Assembly (NCBI GenBank): GCA_021787615.1
Contig: JAJYLP010000034.1
Span: forward strand, 1 to 34,147
Direction of reading: 5' to 3'
Source: Pseudomonadota bacterium
GTDB taxonomy: Bacteria; Pseudomonadota; Gammaproteobacteria; Steroidobacterales; Steroidobacteraceae
DNA: 34,147 bases
Under the pieces are notes generated by a model. It was not told the DNA's origin and did not search any database. It worked only from the letters and a program-made list of their open reading frames with translations. The position numbers were made by a program, and so were the translations under genes. Numbering within the stretch: position 1 is the stretch's first letter; every line of letters begins with the position of its first letter. This document shows, piece after piece, positions 8,004 through 33,756 of the stretch.

Positions 8004-9047
<1,044 letters not shown>

Positions 9048-12170: not shown

Positions 12171-12247
12171 CGGAGCGTGGCGCAGTCTGGTAGCGCACTT
12201 GCATGGGGTGCAAGGGGTCCCGAGTTCAAATCTCGGCGCTCCGACCA
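12171..12247 (+). tRNA. tRNA-Pro (anticodon GGG), CCA encoded
   Basis: A complete cloverleaf is visible. The acceptor pair is CGGAGCG/CGCTCCG, the D arm GGCGCAGTCTGGTAGCGC, the anticodon stem CTTGC/GCAAG with loop ATGGGGT (anticodon GGG), and the T arm contains GAGTTCAAATCTC. CCA is encoded at 12245-12247. A TATCAT element at 12106-12111 may be its -10 box, but no convincing -35 is seen. The gene marks the end of the conserved block, and the DNA that follows is accessory. Confidence 0.96.
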
Positions 12248-14136: not shown

Positions 14137-16158
14137 TTGCGCCTGAGAGATCTTCCCGCCAACCCCGCTCTCATCCGCTCACCGCGGGCATTTCCGCGCT
14201 CAGTCGGGGTCATCGGCGCCGGCACCATCGGGCCGGACATCGCCTATTACCTTGCAAGCGAAATCCCAGGGCTCAAGCTGCTGCTGGTCGACATCGCCCC
14301 GGCTGCGCTGGCGCGTGCCCAGGAGCGGGTGTACGGGTACGTCGAAAAGGGCGTGCAGCGCAAGAAGATATCTGCCGAACGCGCCGCGTCGGTTCGCGCC
14401 GGCCTTTCAGCGACGACGGATTACGGTGCGCTCGCCGGATGCGATTGGGTGATCGAGGCAGCCACGGAGGATCTCGCGGTCAAGCAGCGGATCTTCTCGC
14501 AAATCGAGGCGGTGATCGCCCCGTCGGCGTTCATCTCCTCGAATACCAGCTCTCTGCCGGCAAGCAGGCTGTTCGGCCATCTCGCGCACCCGCAGCGGGC
14601 GACCGTCACCCATTTCTTCGCGCCCGCCTTTCAAAATCCAATCGTCGAGGTCATAGATTGGGAACGGGCCGAGGACGATGTGGTCGACTGGTTTCGCTGG
14701 CTTTTTGCCGCCACCGGCAAGGTGCCGCTCGTGACACGCGACGCCGTTTGCTTCATGTTGGATCGTGTTTTTGACAATTGGTGCAACGAAGCCGCGACTC
14801 TGCTCGATTGTGCGGATGCGGCGCAGATCGATGCGGTCGCCTGCGATCTGGTGCACGCCGGACCGTTTTTTGTCCTGAACCTCGCTAACGGCAACCGGAT
14901 CATTGTCGAGACGAATACCCTGCAGGCGGAGGAGGAGGGGGCGCACTACCGGCCTGCACGTATTTTCTCATCTGTCGAACGCTGGAGGTTGCCGGCTCGC
15001 GGCGCGGTGCCGTCCGCGATCACCGACGGCGTGCGCCGCAGAATTCGCGATCGCCTACTCGGCATTCTGTATTCTCAAACGGCGGATATTCTCGACCGCG
15101 GCATTGGGCGGCCGGCGGATCTCGAGCTCGGTTGCCGCCTTGCGTTCGGGCTGAAGCGAGGTCCGCTCGATCTCATGCGACTCGCCGGCGAACGGGAAGT
15201 GGACCGGGTCCTTGCGCGTTTGGGCGAGGAACGGCCCGGCATGCCCGGCCGCACGAGGCCACTCGCCGATTACGTCGATTTCATGCGCGACGTACTTATC
15301 GATGATGTCGACGGAGTCTGCGTGATCACCATTCGCCGTCCGGAAGCCCTGAATGCCCTGCATGACGAGCTCAACGATGAAATCCTGGCGGTTCTGCGCG
15401 TCCGGATGACCGACGCGGCCACCGTCGGTTTCGTCCTCACCGGTTATGGACCGCGCGCCTTCTGCGCGGGCGCCGACATCGGCCGTTTCCCGGCGATGCT
15501 CGGCGACGCCACTGCCTCGCGGCAGTATGCGCGCGCGTGCTCACGGCTGCTGATCGCGATCGATTGTGCCGAGAAGCCGGTGGTGGCCGCGCTGAACGGA
15601 CTCGCCCTGGGCGGCGGACTCGAGCTCGCGTTTCGTTGCCACGAAATCGTCGCAACCCGGCACGCGAAGCTGCAGTTCCCGGAGATCGGACTCGGCATCG
15701 TACCGGGCATCGGCGGCATCGCCGTGCCCTACCGGCGCTGGCCGCAAGCGGCGGAGCTCTTTCACCGGATGCTGCAGCAGGCTGAGCGCATCGACGCGGA
15801 AACCGCGGCTCATCATGGCGTTCTGGAGCTTTGCGAGGACTCGACTGACCTCATCCCGAGCGCTGTGGCTCGAGTGCATGCCCTCGTCGGGCGGCTGCCG
15901 GAGCCGGTCGACGGCCCGGTGCGCATCTGTGCGCCGCCGTCAATTCCGGCCGTCGGCGCTGACGGCGCGAGGCTCAGCGTAGCGGTCCGCGCAATCCTCG
16001 ACGAAGCGATAGTGGCGGCCGCCGCGGCGACGTCATGGACCGAAGCGCTCGAAGTTGGCTACGCCGCATTCGGAGCGAGCGCGTGTACCGCCGCTGCGCG
16101 CGAGGGAATCGCCGCCTTCAGTGAGCGGCGGACACCGGATTTCGCCAGCACCGGTTGA
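14137..16158 (+). CDS. Fused 3-hydroxyacyl-CoA dehydrogenase / enoyl-CoA hydratase
   Basis: Bifunctional beta-oxidation enzyme with the dehydrogenase N-terminal and the hydratase C-terminal, the reverse of FadB/FadJ. Start: a TTG with GGAG 6 bases upstream, giving 673 residues. Dehydrogenase: NAD motif GAGTIG at 27-32, SSNTSS at 134-139, catalytic His159 (HFFAPA in place of the usual HFFNP) and Glu171 (IVEVI). Crotonase part (about 385-673): oxyanion-hole loop AFCAGADI at 441-448, and both acid/base residues Glu496 (GGGLE) and Glu516 (FPEIGLG). Both activities look intact. A similar domain order is known from archaeal crotonyl-CoA hydratase/hydroxybutyryl-CoA dehydrogenases. It is convergent with the thiolase gene, 9 bases apart. 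Confidence 0.9.
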   Translation: MRLRDLPANPALIRSPRAFPRSVGVIGAGTIGPDIAYYLASEIPGLKLLLVDIAPAALARAQERVYGYVEKGVQRKKISAERAASVRAGLSATTDYGALAGCDWVIEAATEDLAVKQRIFSQIEAVIAPSAFISSNTSSLPASRLFGHLAHPQRATVTHFFAPAFQNPIVEVIDWERAEDDVVDWFRWLFAATGKVPLVTRDAVCFMLDRVFDNWCNEAATLLDCADAAQIDAVACDLVHAGPFFVLNLANGNRIIVETNTLQAEEEGAHYRPARIFSSVERWRLPARGAVPSAITDGVRRRIRDRLLGILYSQTADILDRGIGRPADLELGCRLAFGLKRGPLDLMRLAGEREVDRVLARLGEERPGMPGRTRPLADYVDFMRDVLIDDVDGVCVITIRRPEALNALHDELNDEILAVLRVRMTDAATVGFVLTGYGPRAFCAGADIGRFPAMLGDATASRQYARACSRLLIAIDCAEKPVVAALNGLALGGGLELAFRCHEIVATRHAKLQFPEIGLGIVPGIGGIAVPYRRWPQAAELFHRMLQQAERIDAETAAHHGVLELCEDSTDLIPSAVARVHALVGRLPEPVDGPVRICAPPSIPAVGADGARLSVAVRAILDEAIVAAAAATSWTEALEVGYAAFGASACTAAAREGIAAFSERRTPDFASTG

Positions 16159-16167
16159 GAGACGCGC

Positions 16168-17379
16168 TCAGCGGCGTGGACCGTCTACACGGATGACGAT
16201 CGCCATCGCCGAATCACCCGCGGCGCAGCCTGTGAACAGGCCGAGACCGCCCCCGCGCTCGACGAGCTGTTCGATGAGTTCGATCGTCGAGCGAAGGCCG
16301 GTTGGGGCATTGGGGTGGCCGTAGACGAAGGAGCAGCCACGGGCGTTCATGGTGTTCGGATCGGCACCGGTCGCCTGCGCAAAGGCGAGATCATTGACGA
16401 TGAACGGGTTGTGAGTGTTGATCGCGGCGAGTTCGAGGATGCCGACGCCAGCGAACGCCAGTGCGCGTTCGGCGGCTGCAATCGGCGCCTCTGGCATGTA
16501 GGCGAGCTCGGCGCGCGACTGGCCGAAACCAAGGATCTCGATGAACACCGCCGGGTCGGCGGAGATCTCACGGGCGCGGTCGGGGCTCGTGACCATGATG
16601 GCGGCGCTGCCGTCCGCCGGATGAGTCTGGCCTCCGAACGTCACCGTTCCGCCTTCACTGACCGGCTTCAATGCCGCGAGCCCCTCGGGCGTGGAAAACC
16701 GCACTCCCTCGTCGCCATCAAGTGTCATCTGCGTCTTGCTGAAGCGCGCATCGGGCACCGGAAACGGAATCGTCATGTATCCTTTCTGGAAGCGCTTTTC
16801 GTCCGCGAGCGCGTCGCGATATTGCGCTTCGCGCCGCAAGACGAGTTCGTGCTGGCGCGCCATACCGATGCCGAAGCGACGCGCAACGTTTTCGGCGGTT
16901 TGCACCATGGAATGCCCGCCGAGGGGGTCGCACGCCATGTTCTCGAGAATGAAGTCCTCGGATTCGCCCGTGCCGCCCATGCCGCCAGGGTTCGGGTGGT
17001 AGATATGCGGGCCATTGGAAGTGCGGTCGCAGGCGATCGCGAGGGCGACCTTTGCCTCACCGGTGGACACCTCGCGCGAGGCCACCGAGAGAGCACGGAT
17101 GCTGGTTGCGCAGGCTTGAGAGACCGTCGGACCGGCAACGTGACCGGCGCCAATGAGGCCCATCAACCACGGCAAGCCGTAGAAGCAATTGCGCTCGGGG
17201 CGTGTCATGCCTAGGACGCCGAAATCGATGATGCTCGGATCGCTGTTGCGGCGTGCGAGCTCGGCTCGAGCCACGTGTGCGGCAAAACGCAGGCTGTGCA
17301 GGTGCGCGAAGGCGCCTTGCCACCGTGCGAACGGTGTCGACCAATAAGCTCGATACGGAATTGAGGCGCGCAACTGCAT
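16168..17379 (-). CDS. Thiolase (acetyl-CoA C-acyltransferase family)
   Basis: Predicted to cleave a 3-oxoacyl-CoA with CoA. The ATG at 17379 has GGAGAAG upstream and gives 403 residues. Nucleophile Cys90 lies in SQACATSIRA. The second-half signatures are His355 in VYGHPNAPTG and Cys385 in TGCAAGD. The usual NEAFA loop is replaced by NTHNPF (321-326), and the usual GNAS by GGQTH (249-253), so this is a divergent thiolase with an altered acyl pocket. It is the last gene of the nine-gene operon, 53 bases after the CoA-transferase. An SCP-x-like specificity is possible. Confidence 0.87.
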   Translation of the reverse strand: MQLRASIPYRAYWSTPFARWQGAFAHLHSLRFAAHVARAELARRNSDPSIIDFGVLGMTRPERNCFYGLPWLMGLIGAGHVAGPTVSQACATSIRALSVASREVSTGEAKVALAIACDRTSNGPHIYHPNPGGMGGTGESEDFILENMACDPLGGHSMVQTAENVARRFGIGMARQHELVLRREAQYRDALADEKRFQKGYMTIPFPVPDARFSKTQMTLDGDEGVRFSTPEGLAALKPVSEGGTVTFGGQTHPADGSAAIMVTSPDRAREISADPAVFIEILGFGQSRAELAYMPEAPIAAAERALAFAGVGILELAAINTHNPFIVNDLAFAQATGADPNTMNARGCSFVYGHPNAPTGLRSTIELIEQLVERGGGLGLFTGCAAGDSAMAIVIRVDGPRR

Positions 17380-17432
17380 TGTACTTCTCCAAACCCGTCT
17401 GCTTGCGGAGCATGGTCTGAGCCGCAGACCTG

Positions 17433-18647
17433 TCAGACGGCTATGATCCCGTCCCGAGCCCAGGCATCGATCTCCTGCGGCTGGCAACCGGCTTCAGCGA
17501 GAAGACGGCGGGTGTCGGCGGCGTATTTTGGTGGAAATGGAAGGTGGCGGCTCGCCTCCGGACGTTCGACCGGCAGCGGCTGCATGCGCACGGTTCGACC
17601 GTCGGGAAGAGTCGTCGTCGTCAGGTGCTCGCGTAGCGGCGGGAGGTCGCGCACGGCTCCAAGTTCAAGGATTTTCGTAGACGGAATGGTCGCCTCACGG
17701 AATTTCACCAGCAGTTCGTCCGCCGACTGCGACGCGGTCAACGCGGCCAGTTCGCGATAGATTGCGTCGCGCTCGCGATACCGGCCCTCGTTGGTGGCTC
17801 GAGCGCCGCTGGCCACCGACTCGAACCCCGGGATTGCCGTCAAACGGCACCACTGCAGATCAGACCCGATGGCGAGGTAGACGAAGCCGTCGCGCGCCGG
17901 ATAGACGTTCGTGGGAATGAACTTCCGATGTGCGTTCCCCGAGCGGGTCAGATCCGAGGGAGTGGCATCGAAGTCCAGCAACGGCAGGAAGGTCAACAGC
18001 CACGATGCCGCAGCCTGCATCATCGATACGTTGATTTCCTGCCCCTTGCCGGTGGTGGCGCGCTCCAGCAGAGCAAGCAGCACATTGGCATAGAGCTCGT
18101 CTCCGGCCTTCAGATCAACCACAGGAACGCCCATCAGGGTGGGCGGTCCACCGTGCTCGCCGGTCAGGGCCATGTAGCCGCACATCGCCTGAATGACCGG
18201 ATCGTAGCCGGGGGTGTCGGGCCAGCTCGGGCCCAGGGCAGAGATCGCCGCCCAGATCAGACCGGGCCGCTCGGCGCTCAGTGTCGCATAGTCGATGCCC
18301 AGCGAGCGGTAGCGCGACGGCAGCGTGTTGCAGCAGAAGACATCGACGTCGAGCGTCCGGATCAACTGCCGCAGGATCGCTCTGCCGCGCTCGTCCTTCA
18401 GGTTCAGCGCGATGGCTTCCTTGCCGACGTTCGGTGCAATGAAATAGCTGCGTCGATCGTCATCCGCGACCCGCTCACCGATATAGCGGTTGGGGTCGCC
18501 GGGCAGGGTGTCGCCGGACGGGGTTGATTCGATGCGAATCACCCGCCAGCCGAGTTGCGCGAAACGCAGCGTCGCCGAGGGAAGCGACAGAGCCTGCTCC
18601 AGGCTGAGAACGACCGGTCGGGTGGTCAAGCGGCGTCCGCGGGCCAC
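17433..18647 (-). CDS. Class III CoA-transferase (CaiB/BaiF family)
   Basis: Transfers CoA between a donor thioester and a free carboxylic acid through an aspartyl-CoA mixed anhydride. The 404-residue protein has the family pattern with catalytic Asp178 in [37 protein letters not shown], plus [19 protein letters not shown] and a C-terminal [16 protein letters not shown]. The GTG start overlaps the Mo-subunit gene by 22 bases, and a TTG a few codons later is an alternative. In context it could activate the acid from the Mo enzyme or recycle CoA from a product. Formyl- and succinyl-CoA donors are both known in the family, and none can be chosen here. Confidence 0.9.
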
Positions 18648-21019
18648 TTCGGTGGCATATTCGAGCCCCGCAGCGCGCGGTAGACCTTTTCGGGAGTGAA
18701 GGGCAGCGCATAGATTCGGGTGCCGGTCGCGTTGTAAATGGCGTTTGCGACCGCAGCGGCTATGCAGATCGCAGGTGCTTCGCCGACGCCCTTGGCTCCC
18801 TGCGGGCCTTCGCCATCCATGGTCTCGATGAACGAGACGTCCATCTCCGGTATCTCCGGGGCCGTGACCAGCTTGTAGTCGCGGAAGTTCGGATTCCTGA
18901 TCACACCGTCCTCGACCAATAGATCTTCGGACAATGCATAGCCTTGTCCCATCACGATCCCGCCCTCGATTTGCCCTTCTATGCCGAGGCGGTTAAGCAC
19001 GCGTCCGACGTCGTGCGCCGCCGTGATCTTTAGCAGCCGAACGATTCCGGTGTCGGTATCGACCTCGACCTCAGCGACTTGCGTGGCCCACGCATAAGCG
19101 GCCGAAACGTTGCCTTTGTAGTTTCGATCCAGGTGAACGCTCGGTGGCTCGTAATAGTATGTCGTCATCACGAGCTCCGCCTTCTCCGAGAAGTGCAGCG
19201 AACGCAGGAACTTGCCGATCTCCTGGATGCGCTCACCGGTCGCCCTGAGGACGATGTGTCCGCCGCGCAAGTCGAGATCGTCCGGCGTGCGCCCGGCCTT
19301 TGGGGCAGCAATCTCGAGAATCTTGCGCTTCGCCTTGCGTGCCGCTCCAATCGCCGAGTTGCCGCCGATGAACGTCGTGCGGGACGCATGTACGCCGACA
19401 TCCCATGGCGTGATCGCCGTATCGTTATTCACCACGGTCACGGAGTCGATTGGCAGCCCGAGCTCCTCGCAGACGAGCAGCGCCAGAACCGTCTCGGAGC
19501 CCTGACCAATTTCGGATGCGCCGGTGATCAACGTGACTTTCGCAAAGTCATCGAGCTTTATGATCGTGCCGCACCCGTCCGACGGATACATCTTGGCACC
19601 GCCGCCGACATGAAGCATGGAGGCCATTCCGATGCCGCGCTTGACCGGGTTGCCGTCGTTCCAGTGCTCGAGGTTACGCCGACGCTTTGCCGCATAGTCG
19701 CTGCGCTCTGCAGCCGTGCCGAGGCACTCCTTGAAGCCGCACGAGCGGAAATGCATCCCCTGAGGCGTCGACTCACCCGGATCCTGTGCGTTCAGCAGTC
19801 GGAATTCGAGCGCGTCCATGCCAAGCGCATCGGCGAGCTTGTCCATGTGCGCTTCGACGGCGAAGGTCGCCTGAAGATTGCCGTAGCCGCGGAAAGACCC
19901 GGCATAAGGGTTATTGGTATATACCGCCCGCGTCCGGTAATGGCAGTGTGGCACACGATACAGCGAGGAAATAGTCTGCATCATCACGAACGGCGTGGTT
20001 GCGCCCCAGGACGTATAGGCGCCGTTATCGTGAATTGTGTCGACGGCGCGAAAGGTGAGCCGACCTTCACGGTCGCAACCGGACCGCAGCTTGAGCAGAA
20101 CCGGTTGTCTTGTCGGAGAGGCGATGAACTCCTCCTCGCGCGTAAACAGCAGTTTCACCGGTCGGCGCGTTATTTTCGCAAGAAAGATCGCAATCGGCTC
20201 GAACGGGTAAATATCCAGCTTGGAGCCAAAGCCGCCGCCGATGGGCGGCTGAATGATGCGAATGCGACCCGGGTCGATCCCCAGCAGTTCGGCAAACTCC
20301 CGTTTATGCAGAAACGGCACCTGCGTGTTCGAATACAGCAGCAGGCTGCCGGAAGCATCGAACTCGGCGATGACGCCGGAGACACCCATACAGCAATGGG
20401 TCACGTAGTGCAGCCAAAAGACGTCCTCAACGACGACGACCGATTCCCGCTCGCCTTGGCTAACGTCCCCGTGGCCATACTCGTACGCCATCGAGACGTT
20501 GTCGCTGCACGCCTTGTGAACGACTTCGAGTGCGCCGTTGCGGCCGGGAACACGCAGGTCCTCCCCGTGCAACAGCGGCGCCCCCGGCCCGAGGGCCTGC
20601 GCGCTGTTCGTGACGATCGGCAGCGGCTCGTAGGCGACTCGAATCAGGCGCAACGCCTCCTGCGCGGCCTGGACCGTATCGGCCGCTACCGCGGCAATCT
20701 CGTCGCGGCGGCTGCGAACGATGTCCGCCTTGAGGGGCATGTGGTCCTTGGTGATGCCGATCGGGCGTTGCCACGGCACGTCGGCGGCAGTGATCACGGC
20801 ATGGACGCCGGGCACGCGGCGGGCGGCCTCAACGTCGATCGAGACGATGCGGGCATGCACTTCCGTCGCGCGGAGGATCTTAGCGTGCAACTGACCGGGG
20901 ACGTTGATGTCGTGCAGGTAGCGTGTACGGCCGCTGGCCTTGTCGGGCGCGTCGAGCTTCGGAACGCGTCGCCCGATCAGCGAGTCAGCAAACGCTTCTT
21001 CGCGCGGTGTCGGTGCCAC
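18626..21019 (-). CDS. Xanthine dehydrogenase-family molybdenum hydroxylase, large (Mo-cofactor) subunit
   Basis: Catalytic subunit carrying molybdopterin, hydroxylating a carbon with water as the oxygen source. The GTG at 21019 has AAGGAG 7 bases upstream and yields 797 residues beginning [29 protein letters not shown]. Cofactor motifs include GGGFGSK at 261-267, [27 protein letters not shown] and [16 protein letters not shown]. The presumed catalytic base is Glu747 in KGVGEAP. Similarity in pattern is to HcrA, CoxL and nicotinate/quinoline hydroxylase large subunits, so the substrate stays open. It completes the FAD/FeS/Mo trio typical of the family. Confidence 0.93.
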
Positions 21020-21029
21020 TTCGTGCTCC

Positions 21030-21512
21030 TTAGTCGACGGCTGGGGACGGATGCGCCGCTGCTTCGATCGCGTCGAGAATCTTCCGGTAGCCGGTGCAGC
21101 GGCAGAGATTGCCCTCGAGACCACGCTGGATCTGTGCGCGACTCGCGTCGGGATTGTCTGTGAGCACCTGTTGTGCCTGCATCATGATTCCCGGCGTGCA
21201 GAAACCGCATTGGACAGCGCCATGCTCGACCATGGCCCGGTTGAGAGTTTCGCCGAACGGGGTAGCCGCCAAACCCTCGATGGTCTGTATGTCACGGCCG
21301 TCGCAATCGACCGCAAACTTAAGGCAGGAGTTGACGGTGCGGTGGTCGACGCTGATCGTGCAGGCGCCGCATTCGCCTTCGCCGCACCCATACTTGGTGC
21401 CATGCTGTCCCATCATATCGCGGAGCATTTCCAGTGCGCTCATTTGTAGGGGAACGCTCACGCGCCGGCTGATGCCGTTGAGACGGAATTCAATTTCAAT
21501 TAGGGCAGACAT
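21030..21512 (-). CDS. Molybdenum hydroxylase small subunit with two [2Fe-2S] clusters
   Basis: Electron-transfer subunit of the Mo hydroxylase, passing electrons from the Mo site to FAD. The 160-residue protein carries both canonical clusters. The plant-ferredoxin type is Cys43, Cys48, Cys51 and Cys63 (CGEGECGACT). The helical type is Cys102, Cys105, Cys137 and Cys139 (CGFC and CRCTGY). It is cytoplasmic, with no Tat signal. The gene overlaps the FAD-subunit gene by 17 bases and precedes the Mo subunit by 10 bases. Confidence 0.95.
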   Translation of the reverse strand: MSALIEIEFRLNGISRRVSVPLQMSALEMLRDMMGQHGTKYGCGEGECGACTISVDHRTVNSCLKFAVDCDGRDIQTIEGLAATPFGETLNRAMVEHGAVQCGFCTPGIMMQAQQVLTDNPDASRAQIQRGLEGNLCRCTGYRKILDAIEAAAHPSPAVD

Positions 21513-22362
21513 CGGTCAACATCCTCCGCAGGAGGTTGTGCACTAGTTCGCGCCGATACCAGTCGGATGCGCGAACGTCGCTGATCGGGTGAATCGTCGC
21601 GTCCGCAGCATCGACCACCCGATCGATGCGGGCTCGATCGAGCGGGCCTTCCGCGAGCACCCGCTCGGCGTCATGCGCTCGAATGGCCGTTGGTGCTACG
21701 GCGCCGAGCGCGAGGCGGGCATTCTCAAGCCGCCCGTCGAGCAGAGTGCCGCCGACCGCGAGCGCGATCGTGGAAATGTCGAGTGCCGGGCGAGTTCCGA
21801 ACTTGACGTATCGATCCACCCAGCCCGATGCGGGGACGGGTATGTGCACCTCGACCAGAAGCTCATCGGGTCGGCGTGCGGTGCGACCGGGGCCGGTGAG
21901 GAATTCGGACAGCGGCAGGCGCCGCTCGAGGATCCCGGCCGCTCCGCCGCTCGCCAGGACCACGGATGCATCGAGCACGAGCAGCGGGACCAGCGTGTCG
22001 CCGGCGGGCGAAGCGTTGCAGATGTTGCCGCCGATGGTCGCGGCGTTGCGGATCTGGTCGCTCGCAAAGTGGTCACAAGCCTGCCAGAGCACGGGCGCGC
22101 CGTTGCGCACCGCGGGGTCATCACGCAACGTGGCGATGGTGGTCAGCGCGCCGATCTCCACGGCTCCGTCACGCCGGCGGACGCCGCGCAGTTCGGCTAC
22201 GCCCTGGATGTTGAGCAGCGTCGAGGCAAATCGCACCCTTGCCGATCGGCTCTGTGGCATCAGGTCGGTGCCGCCGGCGAGAACGGTGGCGGGTCCCGAG
22301 GCGAGGACCTGCAGCGCCTCGGCAAGCGAACGCGGCGCAGCATAATTGCGGAGTTCGGCCAC
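21496..22362 (-). CDS. Molybdenum hydroxylase FAD-binding subunit
   Basis: Medium subunit (CoxM/HcrB family) binding FAD and passing electrons to the final acceptor. FAD motifs are VLAGGTDLMP (27-36) and IRNAATIGGNICNASPAGD (104-122) in a 288-residue protein. The segment after the second motif runs straight into LVPLLVLDASVVL. It therefore lacks the extra [4Fe-4S] Cys loop that characterises 4-hydroxybenzoyl-CoA reductase HcrB. This argues for a hydroxylase rather than a reductive dehydroxylase. The gene begins 2 bases after the mutase large-subunit gene. Confidence 0.93.
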   Translation of the reverse strand: MAELRNYAAPRSLAEALQVLASGPATVLAGGTDLMPQSRSARVRFASTLLNIQGVAELRGVRRRDGAVEIGALTTIATLRDDPAVRNGAPVLWQACDHFASDQIRNAATIGGNICNASPAGDTLVPLLVLDASVVLASGGAAGILERRLPLSEFLTGPGRTARRPDELLVEVHIPVPASGWVDRYVKFGTRPALDISTIALAVGGTLLDGRLENARLALGAVAPTAIRAHDAERVLAEGPLDRARIDRVVDAADATIHPISDVRASDWYRRELVHNLLRRMLTDVCPN

Positions 22363-22364
22363 GG

Positions 22365-25497: not shown

Positions 25498-27032
25498 CAC
25501 GCACCCTCGTCGGCGGTGGCGTTTACAATCGAAGCGCGCACATCGGCGCGGTGCAACTTGCCGAGCGCATTGCGTGGCATGTGCCGGAAAAAATGCAATT
25601 CCCGGGGGTGCTTGTAGCGCGCCAACCGGTTCTCGAGCAGCAGCTTGACGGCGTCGATGGTGAGGTCGGCGCCGTCGCGGAGCACTACCGCAGCGACGAC
25701 CATCTCACCGAGCTTCTCATCCGGTTTGCCGACGACGCAGACCTCCAGGACCGACGGGCAGTCGAGCAGCAGGGTTTCGACTTCCTCAGGATAAACGTTC
25801 TCCCCGCCGGTGATGATCATGTCTCTCTTTCGTGAAACGACGTACAGGAACCCATCTGAGTCCAGGTGTCCGATGTCTCCGGAGCAGAACCAGCCATCGC
25901 AGAAGGCGGCAGCGGTTTGCGCGGGCTGGTTCCAGTAGCCACTCATGACGTTGCGGCCTCTGACGAGGATCTCGCCATCGACGCCGACGGGAAGGTCGCA
26001 ATGATTTTCATCGACTATGCGGATCTCGCAGTGCAGCGCGGGCGCGCCGGCAGAGCCGGGGCGCAACGTCGCATCCTCCCGGCGCTGGTAGGCGGCGATC
26101 GGGGCGGTCTCGGTCGAGCCGTACACTTGTGCCAGGGGAATTCCCAGCGAGTTTATGCGTTTGGCGAACTGCTCGGAGATGATGGTTGATCCGCTCGTTA
26201 TCATGCGTAAAGAAAGCAGTTTTGACGGGCTGCAGTTCGGTAGATCGAGAATCGCGGCAAGCTGCGCTGGGACGAGCACAGTGAGCGTGATGCGTTCCCT
26301 CTCAATCGCAGTCAGCGCATGCTCGGCGCTGAAGCGTGGATGCATGATCACGGAGGCGCCGGCCCGCAGCGCGGGCAGCGTCTGGATGTTGAGCCCACCG
26401 ACGTGAAACATCGGCAGTGTCGTCAGTACGCGGTCGTGGCTTGTCAGATCGTGCATGTGCGCGCTGTTGGCGGCGTTACATTCGACCGCGTCCTGCGTGA
26501 GCACGACGCCCTTCGGTATTCCGGTCGTTCCTGACGTGTAACAGAGGATTATCGGCGCATCCGGTCGCCCCACCCGCAGTTCGCAAGGCAGCGCGCCTCG
26601 AGCCCGTTCCGGCGGGTTCCAGACGAGCCACCCGGCCGGCGGCTCGCCGCCGGTGACGATGCAGGTCGTCGCTTGCGTCGGGGCCATCGCGCGAAGTGTT
26701 GCGAGGAATGGCGGCTCGGTCACCAGCGCCTGAGGAGAACAATTGTCGAGGACACGACAAAGCTCCTGTGCGGCCAGGCGCCAGCTGATCGGGGCCAGGA
26801 GGCTCCCAAGTTGGGCACAGGCGAAGAAGAGCTTCAGCAGCAACGGGCTGTTGAGGCCGAGGTAGGCAATGACCGAGCCCTCGCCCACGCCCAGATCCGC
26901 GAGATACCGGGCGGTCAAATCGATTTCTTGTGCGAGCTGCGCATAGCTGAGGTCTTCGCCCTCGAAGCGGATCGCGGTGCGATCCGGCATAAATCGGGCG
27001 TTGCGCTCGATCCAGTGCGACAGGTCCATCAT
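25497..27032 (-). CDS. AMP-forming acyl-CoA synthetase (ligase)
   Basis: Adenylate-forming enzyme that activates a carboxylic acid to its CoA thioester with ATP. The 511 residues hold the P-loop YTSGTTGIPKGV (165-176), the A5-type motif QVYGSTETAP, the hinge region WFCSGDIGHLDSDGFLYVVSRKRDMIITGGENVYPEEVE, and the catalytic Lys492 in GKLHR. It is the first gene of the leftward nine-gene operon. The start codon is one of two adjacent ATGs. The substrate acid is unknown, and the family includes short-, medium-chain and aromatic ligases. Confidence 0.92.
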   Translation of the reverse strand: MMDLSHWIERNARFMPDRTAIRFEGEDLSYAQLAQEIDLTARYLADLGVGEGSVIAYLGLNSPLLLKLFFACAQLGSLLAPISWRLAAQELCRVLDNCSPQALVTEPPFLATLRAMAPTQATTCIVTGGEPPAGWLVWNPPERARGALPCELRVGRPDAPIILCYTSGTTGIPKGVVLTQDAVECNAANSAHMHDLTSHDRVLTTLPMFHVGGLNIQTLPALRAGASVIMHPRFSAEHALTAIERERITLTVLVPAQLAAILDLPNCSPSKLLSLRMITSGSTIISEQFAKRINSLGIPLAQVYGSTETAPIAAYQRREDATLRPGSAGAPALHCEIRIVDENHCDLPVGVDGEILVRGRNVMSGYWNQPAQTAAAFCDGWFCSGDIGHLDSDGFLYVVSRKRDMIITGGENVYPEEVETLLLDCPSVLEVCVVGKPDEKLGEMVVAAVVLRDGADLTIDAVKLLLENRLARYKHPRELHFFRHMPRNALGKLHRADVRASIVNATADEGA

Positions 27033-27247
27033 TAGGGTCCCGCCATTGCCCTGCTTAGTCTAGTGTGGCAGGTCCGGCAGGCGGGAGCAGCAGCGCCGAG
27101 CGCACGCCGTCGGTGACAGAGAGCCCAAAAGGCTGAGTGCGAAACATCCGACCGGAACCTGCGCCAAAGCGGCCGCAACCCGCAGTGGTTAATTGCGTAC
27201 TGTATACAGTACACTATCAATTCGAATGGTGTCAATGAGGGCGACCC
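27033..27247. promoter_or_regulatory. Divergent control region of the ligase operon and hyuAB
   Basis: The 215 bases between two divergent operons contain no credible gene. For the rightward operon, TTGCGT (27193-27198) and TATCAA (27215-27220) are spaced by 16 bases. For the leftward operon, TTGATA (27220-27215 on the minus strand) is a good -35 but the -10 is weak. Operator B lies between these boxes, so one bound repressor could silence both directions. Confidence 0.55.
27197..27212. promoter_or_regulatory. Operator palindrome B
   Basis: GTACTGTATACAGTAC is a perfect 16-bp palindrome. Its inner 14 bases match operator A at 14024-14037 in every position except the two central bases (AT instead of GC). 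It sits between candidate -35 and -10 boxes of the hyuA promoter, 36 bases upstream of the hyuA start. Confidence 0.7.
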
Positions 27248-29323
27248 ATGCGTGTAGGAATAGACGTCGGCGGTACATTCACAGACTTCGTGCTGCTGAA
27301 CGAGAGTACGGGTGAAACCTACTCGCATAAGTGCCTCACCACACCAGCAGACCCAACCGAGGCGATTCTCGATGGCCTCGCCGCTCTCGAGCGCGTGCGC
27401 CCGGGAACGATGGCGAACCTCGAGGAAGTCATCCATGGTACGACGCTCGTCATAAATGCGATCATCGAGCGTAAGGGCGCGCGGACCGGCCTGCTGACGA
27501 CCAGCGGGTTCCGCGATGTCCTGGAACTCGGTCGCGAGCTTCGCTACGCCGCATACGATCCACACGCTCCGATGCCCGAGCCGCTCGTTCCTCGCGAACG
27601 ACGGCTCGAGGTTCGCGAACGTGTCCGTGCCGACGGCAGCGTTCTGCAGGCGCTCGAGCCGGGCAGTGTGGGCGCCTCGCTGGCGCGTCTGAAGGCCGAT
27701 GGGGTCGAGTCAATTGCGGTCTGCCTGCTCAATTCATTTGAGAATCCGCAACACGAGTTCGAGATCAAGCGCCTGATCGCCGAGGCGTTGCCGGGCGTGT
27801 CGGCCTCGATTTCCTACGAGGTCTTGCCCCAGATCCGGGAATACGAGCGGACAAGCACCACCGTCGCCAATGCATACGTCAAGCCGCTGACCGAAAAGTA
27901 TCTGAGTTCACTGAGAGAGCGCCTCGCAGCCCGCGGATTTCGTGGACGGCTGTTCATCATGCTGTCCTCGGGCGGAGTCACTTCCGCAGACATCGCCGCT
28001 GCGTACCCGGTGCGCATCATCGAATCGGGTCCATGCGCGGCGGTGATCGCCGGTCAGTACTTCAGCAGGCTGTTCAGTCTTCCCGACATGTTCTGCTTCG
28101 ACATGGGCGGTACGACGGCGAAATCTTGTCTCATTCAGAACGGTGCCGCCGAAGTTGTGCCGACGTTCGAAGTGGGCCGCGTGCAGCGCTTTCAGAAAGG
28201 CAGCGGGCTGACGCTACAGGTTCCGGTCGTCGACCTGATGGAGATCGGTGCGGGCGGCGGGTCCATCGCGCGTCGCAGCCGCGTCGGGACTTTGCAGGTT
28301 GGACCGCAGAGCGCGGGCGCCGAGCCGGGGCCAATCTGCTACGGCCGGGGCGGAACGGCGCCAACTGTAACCGACGCCGACCTGCTTCTCGGTTACCTCG
28401 ATGCGGAATATTTCCTCGGCGGCGCCATGAAGCTCGATGCCGCAGCAGCGCGTAGGGGCATCCAGGAGCAGATCGCCGAGCCCCTCGGAATCTCGCTGCT
28501 GCAGGCCGCGTGGGGGATTCATGACCTCATCAACGAGACCATGGCCGCGGCGGCCAAGACTCACATTGCCGAACGTGGTGGTCATGCACCGCGCGTGACG
28601 ATCGCGGGGTTCGGCGGCGCGGGGCCCGTGCACATGTATGGACTCGCGCGTAAGCTTGGAGCGCCGCGTCTGCTGGTGCCGCCCAACGCCGGTGTCGGGT
28701 CGGCACTCGGATTCTTTACGGCGCTGCGCGCGTTCGATGTGGTCAGGAGCCATAAATCGCCGCTGCATGGTACGGACTTTGCCGCCTTGGAGGAGATTTT
28801 CCACGGTCTCGAGGAGTCAGCCGCGGCGGCACTGCAGTCAAGCGGCGCCGCAAACGCCGTCACCTTCGAGCGCGCCGTGGACATGCGTTTCATAGGTCAG
28901 GGGTCCGAAACGACCGTTCAGCTCCCGCCGGCTGATTTCCCGGCGGTCTCGGCACGAGAAGTGCGTGAGCGCTTCGACGCCGTGTACGCGAAGCTTTACG
29001 GCCGGACCTATCCGGGGTGCGACGTAGAGTTTGTGAGCTTCAGGGTAAGGGCCAGCCTGCCGGTAAAGCTGCTGGAGTTGCCCAAGTCAACGCCGGTCGC
29101 CGGGGCCACCGCCGCCAGGGCTATCAAGGGTCAGCGACCAGCCTTCTGTCCGCTGGCCGGCGAGATGATCCCCCACATCGTCTATGACCGATATCTCCTT
29201 GCGCCGGGCGTGCAGCTGTCAGGGCCCGCGATCATAGAAGAGCGCGAGTCGACGGTCGTGGTTGGCGAGAGAGGGCAGGTCGCAGTCGATGATTACGGCT
29301 TCCTGTGGATAGACCTGTCGTAG
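27248..29323 (+). CDS. Hydantoinase/oxoprolinase family ATPase subunit A (HyuA-like)
   Basis: Actin-fold ATPase subunit of the hydantoinase/5-oxoprolinase/acetone carboxylase superfamily, phosphorylating a lactam or enol substrate. The 691 residues show the phosphate-1 motif DVGGTFTD (6-13), phosphate-2 FDMGGTTAK (284-292), GAGGGSIA and the GFGGAGPVH nucleotide loop (454-462). The ATG has GAGGG 6 bases upstream. Length fits N-methylhydantoinase A-type proteins. hyuB follows after 12 bases. Alternatives are ATP-dependent cyclic-amide hydrolase or ATP-dependent ketone carboxylase, and no third small subunit of the acetone carboxylase type is present. Confidence 0.93.
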   Translation: MRVGIDVGGTFTDFVLLNESTGETYSHKCLTTPADPTEAILDGLAALERVRPGTMANLEEVIHGTTLVINAIIERKGARTGLLTTSGFRDVLELGRELRYAAYDPHAPMPEPLVPRERRLEVRERVRADGSVLQALEPGSVGASLARLKADGVESIAVCLLNSFENPQHEFEIKRLIAEALPGVSASISYEVLPQIREYERTSTTVANAYVKPLTEKYLSSLRERLAARGFRGRLFIMLSSGGVTSADIAAAYPVRIIESGPCAAVIAGQYFSRLFSLPDMFCFDMGGTTAKSCLIQNGAAEVVPTFEVGRVQRFQKGSGLTLQVPVVDLMEIGAGGGSIARRSRVGTLQVGPQSAGAEPGPICYGRGGTAPTVTDADLLLGYLDAEYFLGGAMKLDAAAARRGIQEQIAEPLGISLLQAAWGIHDLINETMAAAAKTHIAERGGHAPRVTIAGFGGAGPVHMYGLARKLGAPRLLVPPNAGVGSALGFFTALRAFDVVRSHKSPLHGTDFAALEEIFHGLEESAAAALQSSGAANAVTFERAVDMRFIGQGSETTVQLPPADFPAVSAREVRERFDAVYAKLYGRTYPGCDVEFVSFRVRASLPVKLLELPKSTPVAGATAARAIKGQRPAFCPLAGEMIPHIVYDRYLLAPGVQLSGPAIIEERESTVVVGERGQVAVDDYGFLWIDLS

Positions 29324-29335
29324 GAGTGCTCAAAA

Positions 29336-31033
29336 GTGCAGCGTTTCGACCCCGTCACGCTCGAGATCCTGTGGCGCCGCCTCGTGTCGATCGTCGATGA
29401 GGCAGATGCAGCAGTCGTTAGAACGGCGTTCTCAAGTGTACTTCGAGACTCCCACGACTATACGTGCATGTTCACGGACAGCCGGGGTCGCGAGCTCGCA
29501 CAGGGCACGCTGGCGAGTCCCGGGCAATCGGGCGCGATGGCGCTCGGCATCAAGAAGCTGATCAACAGCCGACCCGCGGACTTCTTCCGGCCGGGAGACG
29601 TCTTCATCACCAACGATCCGTGGGTGCTCGCGGGTCACCTGAACGACGTTTGCGTTCTGAGTCCGGTGTTTCGGCGCGACAGGCTCATGGCATTCACCGC
29701 CTGCATCCTGCACCATGCCGACGTGGGTGGGCGCGTTGCGTCCAACAGCCACGACGTCTTCGAAGAGGGACTATTCCTACCGCTGGTGCGCCTGTACGGG
29801 GGCGAACAGCCGAACGAGGATATCTTCAACATCATTCGCGCGAACGTGCGCACGCCGGAACAAGTTCAAGGGGACATCCGTTCGCAGATCGCTGCGAATC
29901 ACGTGTGCGCCCAACACATACTGAAGCTTCTCAATGACTACCGCCTGGATGATCTCGATGAACTTGCGGAGGAGATCATCCGGCGGAGCGAGCGCAGCTT
30001 GCGCGAAGCCATCGCGCGCGTTCCCGATGGTACATATCGCGCAAGCGGTACCATCGAGCAGATGGAGGGGCAGGCGCCGGTCGAGATTCGCTGTGAATTG
30101 AGGATCAAGGGAAGCGACGTAGTCGTCGATCTGTCTGGAACGACGCGCCAGGTGGAGTGGGGCGGGAATGTCGTATTCAACTTCACGTACGCTTACGTAC
30201 ACATGGCCATCAAGAGCATATTCGACCCGGAGCTGCCGAATAACGAGGGCACGGCGGCGCCGATAACTCTTATCGCTCCGGAGGGCACGGTGGTCAATTG
30301 CCGCCATCCGGCACCAGTGGTGGCGCGAATGCAGATTGGCCACTTCATGACAGAGATCATCTATCGCGCCTTGGCGCCGGTTTTGCCCGATCGCGTGATC
30401 GCAGGCAGTGGCGGGACGCCGGCGACCATGCAGGTATTCTTCGGCACGCGCTGTTCGGGTGATCCGTTCCACGCGGCGGTGATCCGCGGCGGCGGCATGG
30501 GAGCGGGCGCCGCGGCTGACGGGTCGGGAAGCTTCGTGTTTCCCGCCAATGCGGCGAACACACCGGTCGAGATCTTTGAAAGCGATACGCCGCTCGTCAT
30601 CCGCTCGCGCGAGTTGCTTGCGGATTCCGGTGGTGCCGGAAAGTTCCGCGGTGCGCAAGGCCGGCGGGAGGTGATCTGGGTACCGGATGACGACAAGGGT
30701 CCGCGGGGAAACATCGGCATGGCGCTTCAGTCCGGTCGTTTTCAACTTGCTCCGGAGGGTCTTTTCGGTGGTAGACCGGGCCGCCTGGCGCGATTCACGG
30801 TCAATGGCAGGCCGGCGGATCCCTACGGATTGACGCGGCTCAAGAAAGGCGACCTCGTCGAATTCGATACCGCCGGCGGGGGCGGCTTCGGGGATCCCGC
30901 AGAACGGGACGACACCGCGGTGGCGCGGGACGTCGCCAGCGGCCGGGTCACGCCAGAGCGGGCGGCACTCGAGTACCGGTTCGCCGACGAAGCGGGCTCG
31001 GCGCGTGCCGGCGGAGTCGACAAAGATCGCTGA
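29336..31033 (+). CDS. Hydantoinase B/oxoprolinase family subunit (HyuB-like)
   Basis: Catalytic partner of HyuA. The 565-residue protein begins (V)QRFDPVTLEILWRRLVSIVDEADAAVVRTAFSSVLRDSHDYTC, the standard HyuB opening. It continues with FITNDPWVLAGHLNDVCVLSPVF, HHADVGGR (likely metal-binding His/Asp), and the late SGGAGKFRGAQGRREV and AGGGGFGDPAERD. The GTG start has GGAG 9 bases upstream. At 565 residues it is closer to hydantoinase B than to the larger acetone carboxylase subunit of about 770, which favours a lactam-opening role, though this is only suggestive. Confidence 0.93.
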   Translation: MQRFDPVTLEILWRRLVSIVDEADAAVVRTAFSSVLRDSHDYTCMFTDSRGRELAQGTLASPGQSGAMALGIKKLINSRPADFFRPGDVFITNDPWVLAGHLNDVCVLSPVFRRDRLMAFTACILHHADVGGRVASNSHDVFEEGLFLPLVRLYGGEQPNEDIFNIIRANVRTPEQVQGDIRSQIAANHVCAQHILKLLNDYRLDDLDELAEEIIRRSERSLREAIARVPDGTYRASGTIEQMEGQAPVEIRCELRIKGSDVVVDLSGTTRQVEWGGNVVFNFTYAYVHMAIKSIFDPELPNNEGTAAPITLIAPEGTVVNCRHPAPVVARMQIGHFMTEIIYRALAPVLPDRVIAGSGGTPATMQVFFGTRCSGDPFHAAVIRGGGMGAGAAADGSGSFVFPANAANTPVEIFESDTPLVIRSRELLADSGGAGKFRGAQGRREVIWVPDDDKGPRGNIGMALQSGRFQLAPEGLFGGRPGRLARFTVNGRPADPYGLTRLKKGDLVEFDTAGGGGFGDPAERDDTAVARDVASGRVTPERAALEYRFADEAGSARAGGVDKDR

Positions 31034-31051
31034 GGGACGCGCCGGACCCGG

Positions 31052-32248
31052 CTACGCGGGAGCCGGCCGCGGCAGGCTCGCGCGAACCAGGGACGGACCG
31101 AACCTGAATAGGTAGATGAGAAAGGCGGCCGCCCACAGAGACGCCGAGGCTGCTGCGAGCCACTCTGGGCCGTGCAGCACTGCGAATGCGATTCTCAACA
31201 CTGCGGCAATGGGCATCATCGTAAACGCGATGCTCATGGGCCGGTCCGCCCGAACGGGGCGACCGGTGTGCTTGAGAACGACGCGCGTCATCAGACCGAT
31301 CTTCAAAGTGCTGTAGGCGCCGATCGTGAACGCATGAACGGCGGCATCATGCCAGTCGGCATGCCCGCCGGCGCACGCGCGTAGCACGAACGACACGATC
31401 AGCCATAGATATGCGATGTGCAGGCACCGAAGGATCGGGTCGCGAAAGGTAAGCCACCCGCGCCACCGCGTCCAGCGCCAAGTGTGCACCAGTGCCGCTA
31501 CGACGGAAGCCAACGTCACCCAAAGCAGGGGCGCCTGGAACAGATCCGTGAGCGCGAACGCGAGCATCGCGACCGCGGTCGCATATTCGATGGGTGGCGA
31601 TATGGGCCTGGATTCCATGCCGCGCGTCCGGAGCCATCGGCGAGTGAACGCGGGAACGAACAGACCCGCGTACAACGTGAACAGAAACATCAGCGCGTCG
31701 ACGGCGAGCGTGAGCGACAGGCGGATCTCGCCGGCCGATCCGGAGATGACCCCGGCGTAGTACACGAAATTCGCAGCGGTGAACGCACACAGCGGAACCG
31801 TCGTCCACGCGAACAGCCGCTTCCTCGAGCCGCGCGCGCTGAGCGCCAGGAAGATGCACAGCACCGGCAGCAGCGAGCAGTCACCAACGGCGACCAGCAG
31901 CTTGGGCAGTTCGTCCTGGAACAACACGCATACCCTGCCCACGAGCCATAGCGCCGCCAGGATGCGCAGCCGAAGTCCGCCGATTTCGGCGGCACCGGTC
32001 CAGCTTGGCAATGCCGTCAGCAGGACTCCGCACACGAGGGCGCCGGCGAACCCAAAGAGTAACTCATGTGCGTGCAGCACCCATAGAGGCAGGTGCGCGT
32101 GAGGCGCCGGCCACAGTCCGATGCGGGCACCGTACCACAGCGCGATCAGCGCCGGGCCATAGAGCGACGCGGCGAGAAAGAAAGGCCGGAAGCCCGAGCT
32201 CCAGATGGGGGCAACGGTCGCGCTGGCTTCGCGCGTCAGCGCGCGCAC
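31052..32248 (-). CDS. nnrS: NnrS family membrane protein
   Basis: Polytopic haem/copper membrane protein of the NnrS family, linked in proteobacteria to nitric-oxide and denitrification physiology. The 398 residues contain about twelve hydrophobic segments. Family landmarks are SSGFRPFFLAASLYG near the start, HAHELLFGFAGALVCGVLLTALPSWTG, and HAFTIGAYSTLKIGLMTRVVLKHTGRP with conserved His. I chose the GTG at 32248 because GGGAG lies upstream. A GTG at 32284 is also in frame. It overlaps the upstream VOC gene by 13 bases. Its role in the cluster is unclear. It could reflect anaerobic, nitrate-dependent use of the substrate. Confidence 0.88.
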   Translation of the reverse strand: MRALTREASATVAPIWSSGFRPFFLAASLYGPALIALWYGARIGLWPAPHAHLPLWVLHAHELLFGFAGALVCGVLLTALPSWTGAAEIGGLRLRILAALWLVGRVCVLFQDELPKLLVAVGDCSLLPVLCIFLALSARGSRKRLFAWTTVPLCAFTAANFVYYAGVISGSAGEIRLSLTLAVDALMFLFTLYAGLFVPAFTRRWLRTRGMESRPISPPIEYATAVAMLAFALTDLFQAPLLWVTLASVVAALVHTWRWTRWRGWLTFRDPILRCLHIAYLWLIVSFVLRACAGGHADWHDAAVHAFTIGAYSTLKIGLMTRVVLKHTGRPVRADRPMSIAFTMMPIAAVLRIAFAVLHGPEWLAAASASLWAAAFLIYLFRFGPSLVRASLPRPAPA

Positions 32249-32682
32249 GGCGTGTCTTCTCCCGCCCCCTCGAGTTCGTGCCACTTGTAGTCGATGACTT
32301 CCAGCAGTACGCCGTTCATCTTTCGCGGATGAACGAATGCGAATTCACAGTCTCGAAACGCTCGAATTCCGCCGATGATTGGGTAGTCCTGCGCAGTCAG
32401 TTCCGATACCGACTCTCGTGTGCTGTCAACATTCATGCTGATCAGCATCACGCCTTCGCCGCGTCGCTCGATGAATTTGGCGACCTCGCCATCAGGAGTC
32501 AGCGATTCCATGAGTTCGAAGCCGATACCATCGAGCCAGTACCGCGCCACACGAATCTTCTCCGGTTCGTCTAGGTAGGCGTCGTCAGGAGCCGATTTTC
32601 CCAACACCGGCTCCCATATCTTCTTCGCCGCCTCGAGATCGCGCACGGCGATGCATATGTGGTCAATCTTGTTCACTTTCAT
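32236..32682 (-). CDS. VOC (glyoxalase/methylmalonyl-CoA epimerase-like) protein
   Basis: 148-residue protein with the paired beta-alpha-beta-beta-beta modules of the vicinal oxygen chelate fold, closest in pattern to methylmalonyl-CoA epimerase (KIDHICIAVRDLEAA, FVHPRKMNGVLLEVID). Of the expected metal ligands, His8 and Glu128 are kept. The usual HH pair of GxxHHIA is replaced by Met79-Leu80, so activity as a classic epimerase is doubtful. The ATG at 32682 gives the standard N-terminus. A B12 mutase in the same cluster makes an epimerase-type partner logical. Confidence 0.82.
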   Translation of the reverse strand: MKVNKIDHICIAVRDLEAAKKIWEPVLGKSAPDDAYLDEPEKIRVARYWLDGIGFELMESLTPDGEVAKFIERRGEGVMLISMNVDSTRESVSELTAQDYPIIGGIRAFRDCEFAFVHPRKMNGVLLEVIDYKWHELEGAGEDTPCAR

Positions 32683-32991
32683 CGGGTAGGCACTCCACCT
32701 GCTTAATTGCCGTGAGTGGCGCGGTCGTTCGAGTGTACAGGGTGTCACTGGCGTCCGCGCGACTTGCATTGGATTGGCCGGAATCTGAGCACGCACGGCG
32801 CGTTGGTCGCGTCCCCAGTAACTGTCGGAATCACCCCGGATCCGGCGTGTGCCTGCATCGCTGAGGACCGAGACGGTTCAGGATCAAGCAGATTGGCGGG
32901 AGAGAGGGGACACCCGATGGATGAGGCGCGAAGAAAGCGGGAGTTGCGCGGCGGACGGTGATCGAGGCGCGCAGACGGTCGGCTGGACGCC
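32683..32991. other. Intergenic region between the VOC and GntR genes
   Basis: These 309 bases contain no gene I can support. The only reading frames are antisense or very short, such as a 14-codon frame at about 32917. A TGTACA half-palindrome near 32738 superficially recalls the operators but lacks their 2-base central spacing. Promoter boxes for the VOC gene are not convincing. Confidence 0.5.
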
Positions 32992-33714
32992 TCAGGCGAG
33001 GTCCACTGCCTTTGGGACATCGTGCTCCTTGCGCAGGCGCGACTTGCGGCGGATATCGGTCAGAGCGTTCGTGAGGGCGTCTTCGGTGAGCTGCAGGTAG
33101 GATCGCCATAGACTTTCCGCCAAGTCGGCATTCCGGTTCGTCAGGGCGTCGCGGATCTTTTCTTGTCGGCTCACGATCTCTCGGCGAAGGTCCATGTCAC
33201 TCAGCGTCGCACCGCGAATGAAATGCAGATGACCCGCGAACTGAGCGATCACAGAACTCAATACCCGATTGGAGATGCCGTCGAAAATGGCGTGCCTGAA
33301 GTCTTCGTTTGCCTTCGCGAACATTCCCGGTTGCGTACGCGGCGCCGCCCGGGATTCAGCGTCTATCGCTTTGGAGATTCTGTCGAACTCAGTGGGACCG
33401 TACTCCTGCGCCGCCAGCCGTACCGCCGCCGGTTCGAGCAGGGCTCGAACCGCGATTATTTGCCGTATTTCTTCGATCGATGGCGAGGGCACGACGGAGC
33501 CGCCGCCGACTCGCGCGCGCAGGATCCCCTGTCTGGTGAGTTGTCCAAGTGCCTCGCGGATCGGGGTTCGGGAGACGCCCAGTCTCTTGGCGAGTCCCTC
33601 CTCGGTGATTCTTTCGCCCGGTGCGAATCGAGCACTCTTCAGTTCGTTGAGGAGAATTTGAAATACCTGCTCGCGCAGGGTTGCTTCCTTTTTGATCGGG
33701 GACCTTCTGTTCAT
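32992..33714 (-). CDS. GntR family transcriptional regulator, FCD/FadR subfamily
   Basis: 240-residue regulator with an N-terminal winged helix (about 12-78: LREQVFQILLNELKSARFAPGERITEEGLAKRLGVSRTPIREALGQLTRQGIL) and an all-helical C-terminal FCD ligand domain. FCD proteins often bind a metal through Asp and three His. Here NEDFRHAIF keeps the first pair. The later EHxxI and HL positions read SRQEKI and RSYLQL, so the metal site looks degenerate. The ATG at 33714 has AGGA 5 bases upstream. It is the only dedicated regulator beside the catabolic genes and the prime candidate to bind operators A and B. No such operator lies at its own promoter. Confidence 0.9.
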   Translation of the reverse strand: MNRRSPIKKEATLREQVFQILLNELKSARFAPGERITEEGLAKRLGVSRTPIREALGQLTRQGILRARVGGGSVVPSPSIEEIRQIIAVRALLEPAAVRLAAQEYGPTEFDRISKAIDAESRAAPRTQPGMFAKANEDFRHAIFDGISNRVLSSVIAQFAGHLHFIRGATLSDMDLRREIVSRQEKIRDALTNRNADLAESLWRSYLQLTEDALTNALTDIRRKSRLRKEHDVPKAVDLA

Positions 33715-33756
33715 CACATTCCTAAGTACTCTCGACCGTAATTTCGGTGACGTATT

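Follow-up and report, generated by a model that had tools for sequence, protein, structure and literature searches.

A probable variant of the iaa (indole-3-acetate) gene cluster in a Steroidobacteraceae genome, with a HyuAB lactamase of a second lineage

Which compound is degraded by a gene cluster that combines a molybdenum (Mo) hydroxylase, a B12-dependent mutase and a HyuAB protein pair? We examined this for a locus on a 34,147-nucleotide stretch of DNA (hereafter the window; contig JAJYLP010000034.1 of assembly GCA_021787615.1) from a gammaproteobacterium of the family Steroidobacteraceae. An initial annotation had described a nine-gene leftward operon together with hyuAB, a fused dehydrogenase/hydratase gene, a VOC-superfamily gene and a GntR regulator gene, all of which were confirmed by open reading frame (ORF) calls and Pfam searches (the gene models rest on both, and their start codons are chosen, putative ones). 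It saw in them one CoA-dependent pathway of hydroxylation, ring opening, B12 rearrangement, dehydrogenation and thiolysis and knew of no described pathway with this set. We judge the single pathway to be right, as in the iaa operon of Aromatoleum aromaticum; the claim of novelty falls, because that operon already has the set (PMC8360864, PMC8453981). Homologous clusters are thus already tied to a known substrate, and by sequence the locus is very probably a variant iaa cluster that degrades the auxin indole-3-acetate without oxygen.

The A. aromaticum operon comprises the ligase IaaB, the phenylsuccinyl-CoA transferase IaaL, the mutase IaaGH, the decarboxylating benzylmalonyl-CoA dehydrogenase IaaF, the regulators iaaQ/iaaR, a truncated iaaD and the binding protein IaaM (PMC8360864), while the hydantoinase-like hydrolase IaaCE is named as the lactamase of the pathway (PMC8453981) and IaaL is placed among the family III CoA transferases (PMC11659651). 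The nine leftward genes of the window (27032 down to 16168, all on the minus strand), which overlap one another by 1-22 bases or are spaced 2-47 apart, begin with an IaaB-like AMP-forming acyl-CoA ligase, the proposed indoleacetate-CoA ligase (25497..27032; PF00501, 5.6e-82), and an IaaF-like acyl-CoA dehydrogenase, proposed to be a decarboxylating aminobenzylmalonyl-CoA dehydrogenase (24364..25497). They continue with the B12-binding small subunit (23969..24373; PF02310, and TIGR00640 over its cut-off) and the large subunit (22365..23978; PF01642, 3.6e-184) of an IaaG/H-like mutase, the latter a proposed phenylsuccinyl-CoA/benzylmalonyl-CoA mutase, followed by the FAD (21496..22362; PF00941, PF03450), [2Fe-2S] (21030..21512; PF01799, PF00111) and large (18626..21025; PF02738, PF20256, PF01315) subunits of the Mo hydroxylase, proposed to form an oxindole, an IaaL-like family III CoA transferase (17433..18647; PF02515, 4.5e-70) and a thiolase (16168..17385; PF00108, PF02803). 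On the plus strand lie the fused 3-hydroxyacyl-CoA dehydrogenase/enoyl-CoA hydratase gene (14137..16158; PF02737, PF00725, PF00378) and, divergent from the ligase, the genes for the predicted ATP-binding and metal-binding lactamase subunits HyuA (27248..29323; PF01968, 4e-82) and HyuB (29336..31033; PF02538, 9.6e-146).

The dehydrogenase ties the cluster to a characterised enzyme. IaaF belongs to a subclass in which GGG replaces YEG, as PMC8360864 states. This GGG motif is found in the window and 75 relatives, 76/76 dehydrogenase frames that could be read (5/81 loci gave no frame), and the published iaaF primers match locus L040 from A. buckelii at 8437-8458 and 9546-9567, both ends of the dehydrogenase gene, with 0 mismatches. 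The window dehydrogenase is 73% identical to the protein marked by these primers. Along the genes of Aromatoleum-type clusters the letters already assigned (B, C/E, F, G/H and L) run alphabetically, and we infer that A denotes the thiolase and I-K the Mo hydroxylase.

Relatives were collected by scanning a genome collection with the large mutase subunit and keeping the best 80 of 357 stretches (73-98% identity), of which 37 are full-flank loci of at least 21,500 bases each; their synteny was taken from tblastn, since gene calling by third-position GC content (GC3) and ORF families were confused there by antisense frames. Named carriers are A. tolulyticum, A. evansii, A. toluolicum, A. buckelii, A. 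anaerobium, A. toluclasticum, Ramlibacter monticola, Candidatus Desulfobacillus denitrificans and Magnetospirillum sp. SS-4, and many other loci come from metagenome-assembled genomes. In 37/37 full-flank loci the ligase, hyuA, hyuB, dehydrogenase, both mutase, all three Mo hydroxylase and CoA transferase genes co-occur, an association beyond chance that bears out the joint occurrence of mutase, Mo hydroxylase and HyuAB for which the initial annotation had proposed a neighbourhood search. The thiolase is present in 36 of these loci, gntR in 35, the fused gene in 16 (a homologue is found in 19/80 loci overall), an NnrS-family gene in 8 and the VOC gene in 3. The usual order is gntR, thiolase, ligase, hyuA, hyuB, dehydrogenase, small and large mutase subunit, Mo-FAD, Mo-FeS and Mo-large subunit, and CoA transferase. 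Aromatoleum evansii KB740 carries two iaa clusters (L028 and L031) within one assembly. A genome of the same order as the window encodes another two-subunit mutase (48% identical in the large and 37% in the small subunit) with a ligase homologue (L113, 2687-8776), perhaps belonging to a different mutase pathway.

When the large mutase subunit was compared with solved structures, the best match was 2-hydroxyisobutyryl-CoA mutase (9.5e-142). At two positions where that enzyme has Ile and Gln, however, the window protein has Tyr64 and Arg182, matching the Tyr and Arg of methylmalonyl-CoA mutase. Both residues are kept in 81/81 iaa-type rows, a count made without the near-copies L004 and L108 and both copies of a 48% relative. 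We take these positions to discriminate between the two mutases and assume that the Arg binds a free carboxylate, which would fit phenylsuccinyl-CoA as substrate. The sole MeaB domain over the cut-off in the own genome (C82, L150) is part of a 1170-residue frame together with a mutase domain. For the large Mo hydroxylase subunit, the best solved match is the alpha subunit of 4-hydroxybenzoyl-CoA reductase (3.5e-113), a CoA-ester enzyme. The dehydrogenase, mutase, Mo-large subunit and CoA transferase of the window are 65-77% identical to those of Aromatoleum-type clusters, exceptions in Mo-large aside. This subunit is only 49-54% identical to that of the window in 18 of the 72 loci that have its gene, loci of either HyuAB kind (L003, L008, L009, L014, L019, L037, L040, L042, L045, L050, L058, L061, L068, L069, L073, L076, L080 and L081), but 60-98% in the remaining 54, and iaa clusters may therefore have swapped their Mo hydroxylase as well.

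The proposed pathway would start with the ligase forming indoleacetyl-CoA. The initial annotation had put CoA activation after ring opening, an order at odds with the published scheme, which starts with CoA ligation (Fig. 1 legend, PMC8360864). The Mo hydroxylase, with water as oxygen source, would then oxidise C2 to give 2-oxindole-3-acetyl-CoA, whose lactam HyuAB would hydrolyse with ATP to (2-aminophenyl)succinyl-CoA, the type-2 HyuAB described below replacing IaaCE as lactamase in this variant. The family III transferase would shift CoA onto the other carboxyl group, the B12 mutase would produce (2-aminobenzyl)malonyl-CoA, and the dehydrogenase would oxidise and decarboxylate this to 2-aminocinnamoyl-CoA, from which the fused protein and the thiolase would yield 2-aminobenzoyl-CoA for the benzoyl-CoA reductase route of the host. 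The own genome has bcrA, bcrB, bcrC, dch and oah over curated cut-offs (C115) and thereby a fitting sink for (2-amino)benzoyl-CoA. Within the genus, bcrB occurs in 3/58 genomes and the iaa mutase in 2/58, both of them bcrB-positive (Fisher 0.0018, from few related genomes); in one congener (G079), the contig with the iaa segment also carries bcrB, about 19 kb from the segment's edge.

The lactamase is where the window departs from most of its relatives. A hyuA gene 70-99% identical to that of the window (type 2) is found in six loci (L002, L003, L004, L016, L029 and L071), and in all six the type-2 hyuAB adjoins the same mutase cluster. Another 49 loci have a type-1 hyuA, 28-38% identical to that of the window, and 25/80 have no hyuA in reach; type 1 is taken as IaaCE because it adjoins iaaF in Aromatoleum loci. 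Trees were built with added homologues from a 369-genome class sample (6 type-2, 16 type-1 and 28 other sequences for HyuA; 5, 16 and 19 for HyuB), and types 1 and 2 each form a single group with support 100. Joining both types into one clade was rejected (AU p 2.9e-5 for HyuA and 1.5e-11 for HyuB), in what are quick trees, made with no mixture model and with long branches among the other sequences. Among the matches listed for the 369-genome sample, HyuA proteins outside these clusters reach at most 46% identity, and the own genome has one other HyuA over the Pfam cut-off (C64), 31% identical to that of the window. In the window, HyuA (691 residues) has intact ATP motifs and HyuB (565 residues) an intact Asp-His-Asp-His metal tetrad, and HyuB scores 200 bits as N-methylhydantoinase vs 55 as acetone carboxylase. 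In the mutase phylogeny, rows with type-2 hyuAB or VOC, nine in all, are not one group (4 changes are needed, and the starred branches force 3), so that a reshuffling of lactamase and mutase lineages has taken place. These comparisons indicate that at least two HyuAB lineages have come to serve the lactam-opening step. Among the titles and abstract beginnings of a literature search we recognised no earlier HyuAB-2 or epimerase in iaa clusters, the original 2012 and 2016 iaa papers not being covered.

Operator-like palindromes bear on whether the two divergent halves act together. One, ACTGTATACAGT (27199..27210), lies between the ligase operon and hyuAB, and another, ACTGTGCACAGT (14025..14036), lies upstream of the fused gene. 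Since 3/100 shuffles reach two matches at no more than one mismatch, the number of palindromes alone is weak evidence, and their position and comparison with other loci are stronger. In 7/7 Aromatoleum loci fetched, the operator 12-mer stands 59-63 bases before the estimated gntR start. Its core, TGTATACA, has 33 occurrences across the 80 loci (1,333,774 bases), of which 30 fall within 250 bases upstream of gntR, and is found upstream of gntR in 30/47 testable loci; among type-2 or VOC loci, it is present only in the window and its near-copy L004. Given the palindrome between the divergent halves and the match in Aromatoleum, the ligase operon and hyuAB of this window probably share a regulator, the FCD-GntR protein encoded at 32992..33717 (minus strand; PF07729, PF00392), which would control the divergent units via the putative operator ACTGTNNACAGT.

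The cluster also appears to be mobile. A 19.9-kb segment (13812..33726) shares 97.2-97.5% identity with contig 78 of congener G079, vs 81.7-82.2% over about 11.7 kb of core DNA in the same pair of genomes, so the segment has moved between species recently. Congener G130 is 95.6% identical over 6.5 kb of core DNA, yet has no mutase match. Carriers are rare around the host: with the own genome included, the mutase was found in 5/296 genomes of the order at 1e-150 (one of them only 48% identical) and in 2/369 genomes of the class at 1e-200. The region of tRNA-Pro (12171-12247) matches in 51 of 58 congeners (own included), and 20/51 best matches stop at the tRNA end or shortly beyond it (12247 or 12253), so that this tRNA resembles a hot spot for integration in the genus. 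No second copy of the tRNA-Pro end was found within the window, and integration by a tRNA-targeting element is thus only a suggestion. In congener G247, the tRNA end recurs as a second copy of 45 bases 1.6 kb downstream (L116, 2853-2900 and 4527-4571).

The VOC-superfamily protein (32239..32685, minus strand; PF13669) resembles methylmalonyl-CoA epimerase, scoring 69.7 bits with TIGR03081 vs the curated cut-off of 114.95. Its gene is found in 6/80 loci (L002, L004, L016, L025, L032 and L078) and in 0 of the 49 with type-1 hyuA; no hyuA is seen in L025, L032 and L078, where the contig is short on the upstream side. Four loci (L016, L025, L032 and L078) have the VOC gene between ligase and dehydrogenase, the place of hyuAB in type-1 clusters. 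The presence of type-2 hyuAB without VOC in L003, L029 and L071 means that the protein is not obligatory. In an alignment with methylmalonyl-CoA epimerases, Met-Leu replaces His-His in 7/7 aligned rows, the second His being presumably a metal-site ligand, and this speaks against a normal metal-dependent epimerase; a predicted structure has a mean pLDDT (predicted local distance difference test) of 61.8. According to PMC8360864, IaaF turns over a single enantiomer, and its assay was restarted by added methylmalonyl-CoA epimerase, a loose end for which the VOC protein is a weak candidate. We tentatively offer, as a possibility that is more doubtful than not, a scheme in which an oxindole-opening HyuAB was recruited anew, the VOC protein inverts the stereocentre of phenylsuccinyl-/benzylmalonyl-CoA because the new lactamase would deliver the other enantiomer, and a 20-kb cassette with the GntR operator core enters lineages that have benzoyl-CoA reductase. 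Between hyuB and the VOC gene, whose end its start overlaps, sits a gene for an NnrS-family membrane protein (31052..32284, minus strand; PF05940, 1.4e-82) that had been absent from the initial gene list. An NnrS-family gene is near the iaa cluster in 11/80 loci (L002, L004, L016, L023, L029, L032, L033, L034, L053, L070 and L072; the rows of the search model were the window and four of these loci), and its product was considered as a possible electron acceptor of IaaF.

How far do these departures argue for another function? The same chemistry could act on another 3-substituted indole or oxindole acid, with recruitment of the new lactamase and the VOC protein for that purpose; the separate lineage of HyuAB-2, the restriction of VOC to six loci lacking type-1 hyuA and the divergence of the ligase (47-56% identity with its counterpart in most related clusters) would fit such a substrate. 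We nevertheless consider it unlikely, given the 65-77% identity of the four enzymes to Aromatoleum-type proteins (the 18/72 Mo-large cases apart), the scatter of type-2 and VOC loci on the mutase tree, a Cys/Ile position near the mutase active site that shows no split by HyuAB type, and an operator common to the window and Aromatoleum. Far less probable still is that the nine-gene operon is iaa with its true lactamase elsewhere and an unrelated hydantoinase next to it. The divergent orientation and other lineage of hyuAB would agree with this, but the only other HyuA of the genome is the 31% identical C64 protein, type-2 hyuAB adjoins the same mutase cluster in six loci, no listed HyuA from outside such clusters exceeds the 46% given above, and the divergent halves have a promoter region in common with an operator-like site.

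The initial annotation had also named two substrate classes, a nitrogen heterocycle or lactam opened by HyuAB, which stands, and a carboxylated ketone, which does not. The latter would have an acetone-carboxylase-like HyuAB carboxylate a ketone ahead of a mutase of the 2-hydroxyisobutyryl-CoA type, and among solved structures such a mutase is indeed what the large subunit matches best. Acetone carboxylase clusters have a third gene and longer subunits, as PMC5214803 reports, whereas the window has two genes and no third (gamma) gene, its HyuB scores far higher as N-methylhydantoinase, and its mutase has Tyr and Arg in place of Ile and Gln. The number of genes, the length of the subunits and the residues of the mutase thus led us to reject ketone carboxylation and 2-hydroxyisobutyrate routes, to which we give next to no credence.

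For the iaa assignment itself, the gene set, the orthology to characterised iaaF, the key residues, the HyuAB lineage, the operator-like sites and the recent transfer are read from sequence, and from these we infer indole-3-acetate as the substrate, each reaction in the host and the regulation. Several observations weigh against the assignment. The enzyme functions of type-2 clusters are predicted ones, and the HyuAB of the window falls outside the type-1 lineage in the trees. The ligase is 60-98% identical to that of L002, L003 and L004, and its distance from most other relatives means that its substrate could differ. No IaaM-like uptake protein was detected by Pfam among the 29 window ORFs, the rest of the genome not being searched, and neither narG nor a stand-alone MeaB chaperone was found in the own genome at scores above cut-off. 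Eight type-2 or VOC loci (L002, L003, L016, L025, L029, L032, L071 and L078) lack the operator core.

Outside the cluster, the left part of the window carries the housekeeping genes uvrB, thrS, pheS and pheT. An ORF at 11-652 adjoining tRNA-Asn resembles, by eye, the end of a recombinase and is without a Pfam match, and the contig end (33757-34125) holds a transposase remnant (DDE_3, 23.7 bits, below the cut-off of 28.6).

With this assignment, an apparently unknown pathway would be filed under auxin breakdown, and the GGG dehydrogenase, the Tyr/Arg mutase and the operator core upstream of gntR offer sequence marks for finding such clusters. Among known systems, the VOC protein shares its fold family with methylmalonyl-CoA epimerase, judged from sequence, and differs in score and in the Leu at the second metal-site His. 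HyuAB is like CapAB and the ATP-dependent hydantoinases, two-subunit ATP-dependent lactam hydrolases, in the ATP motifs and metal tetrad that it keeps, but lies far under the cut-offs of caprolactamase CapA and CapB (525.7/1000 and 215/1000 bits). The six HyuAB-2 clusters have the lineage and mutase neighbourhood of the window, while its arrangement recurs only in L002 and L004, VOC being missing from three of them and the operator core being present only in L004. With the iaa operon of A. aromaticum EbN1, the window shares the ligase, Mo hydroxylase, two-gene lactamase, GGG dehydrogenase, two-subunit mutase, family III CoA transferase, thiolase and GntR-type regulator, in a gene order that nearly matches that in relatives of the EbN1 operon. 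Unlike EbN1, it has a HyuAB of another lineage in divergent orientation, adjoining VOC and NnrS genes, the thiolase at the operon end, the fused dehydrogenase/hydratase downstream, and another host and genomic place. What is known here is the iaa pathway; what is new is the displaced lactamase, the operator and the mobility.

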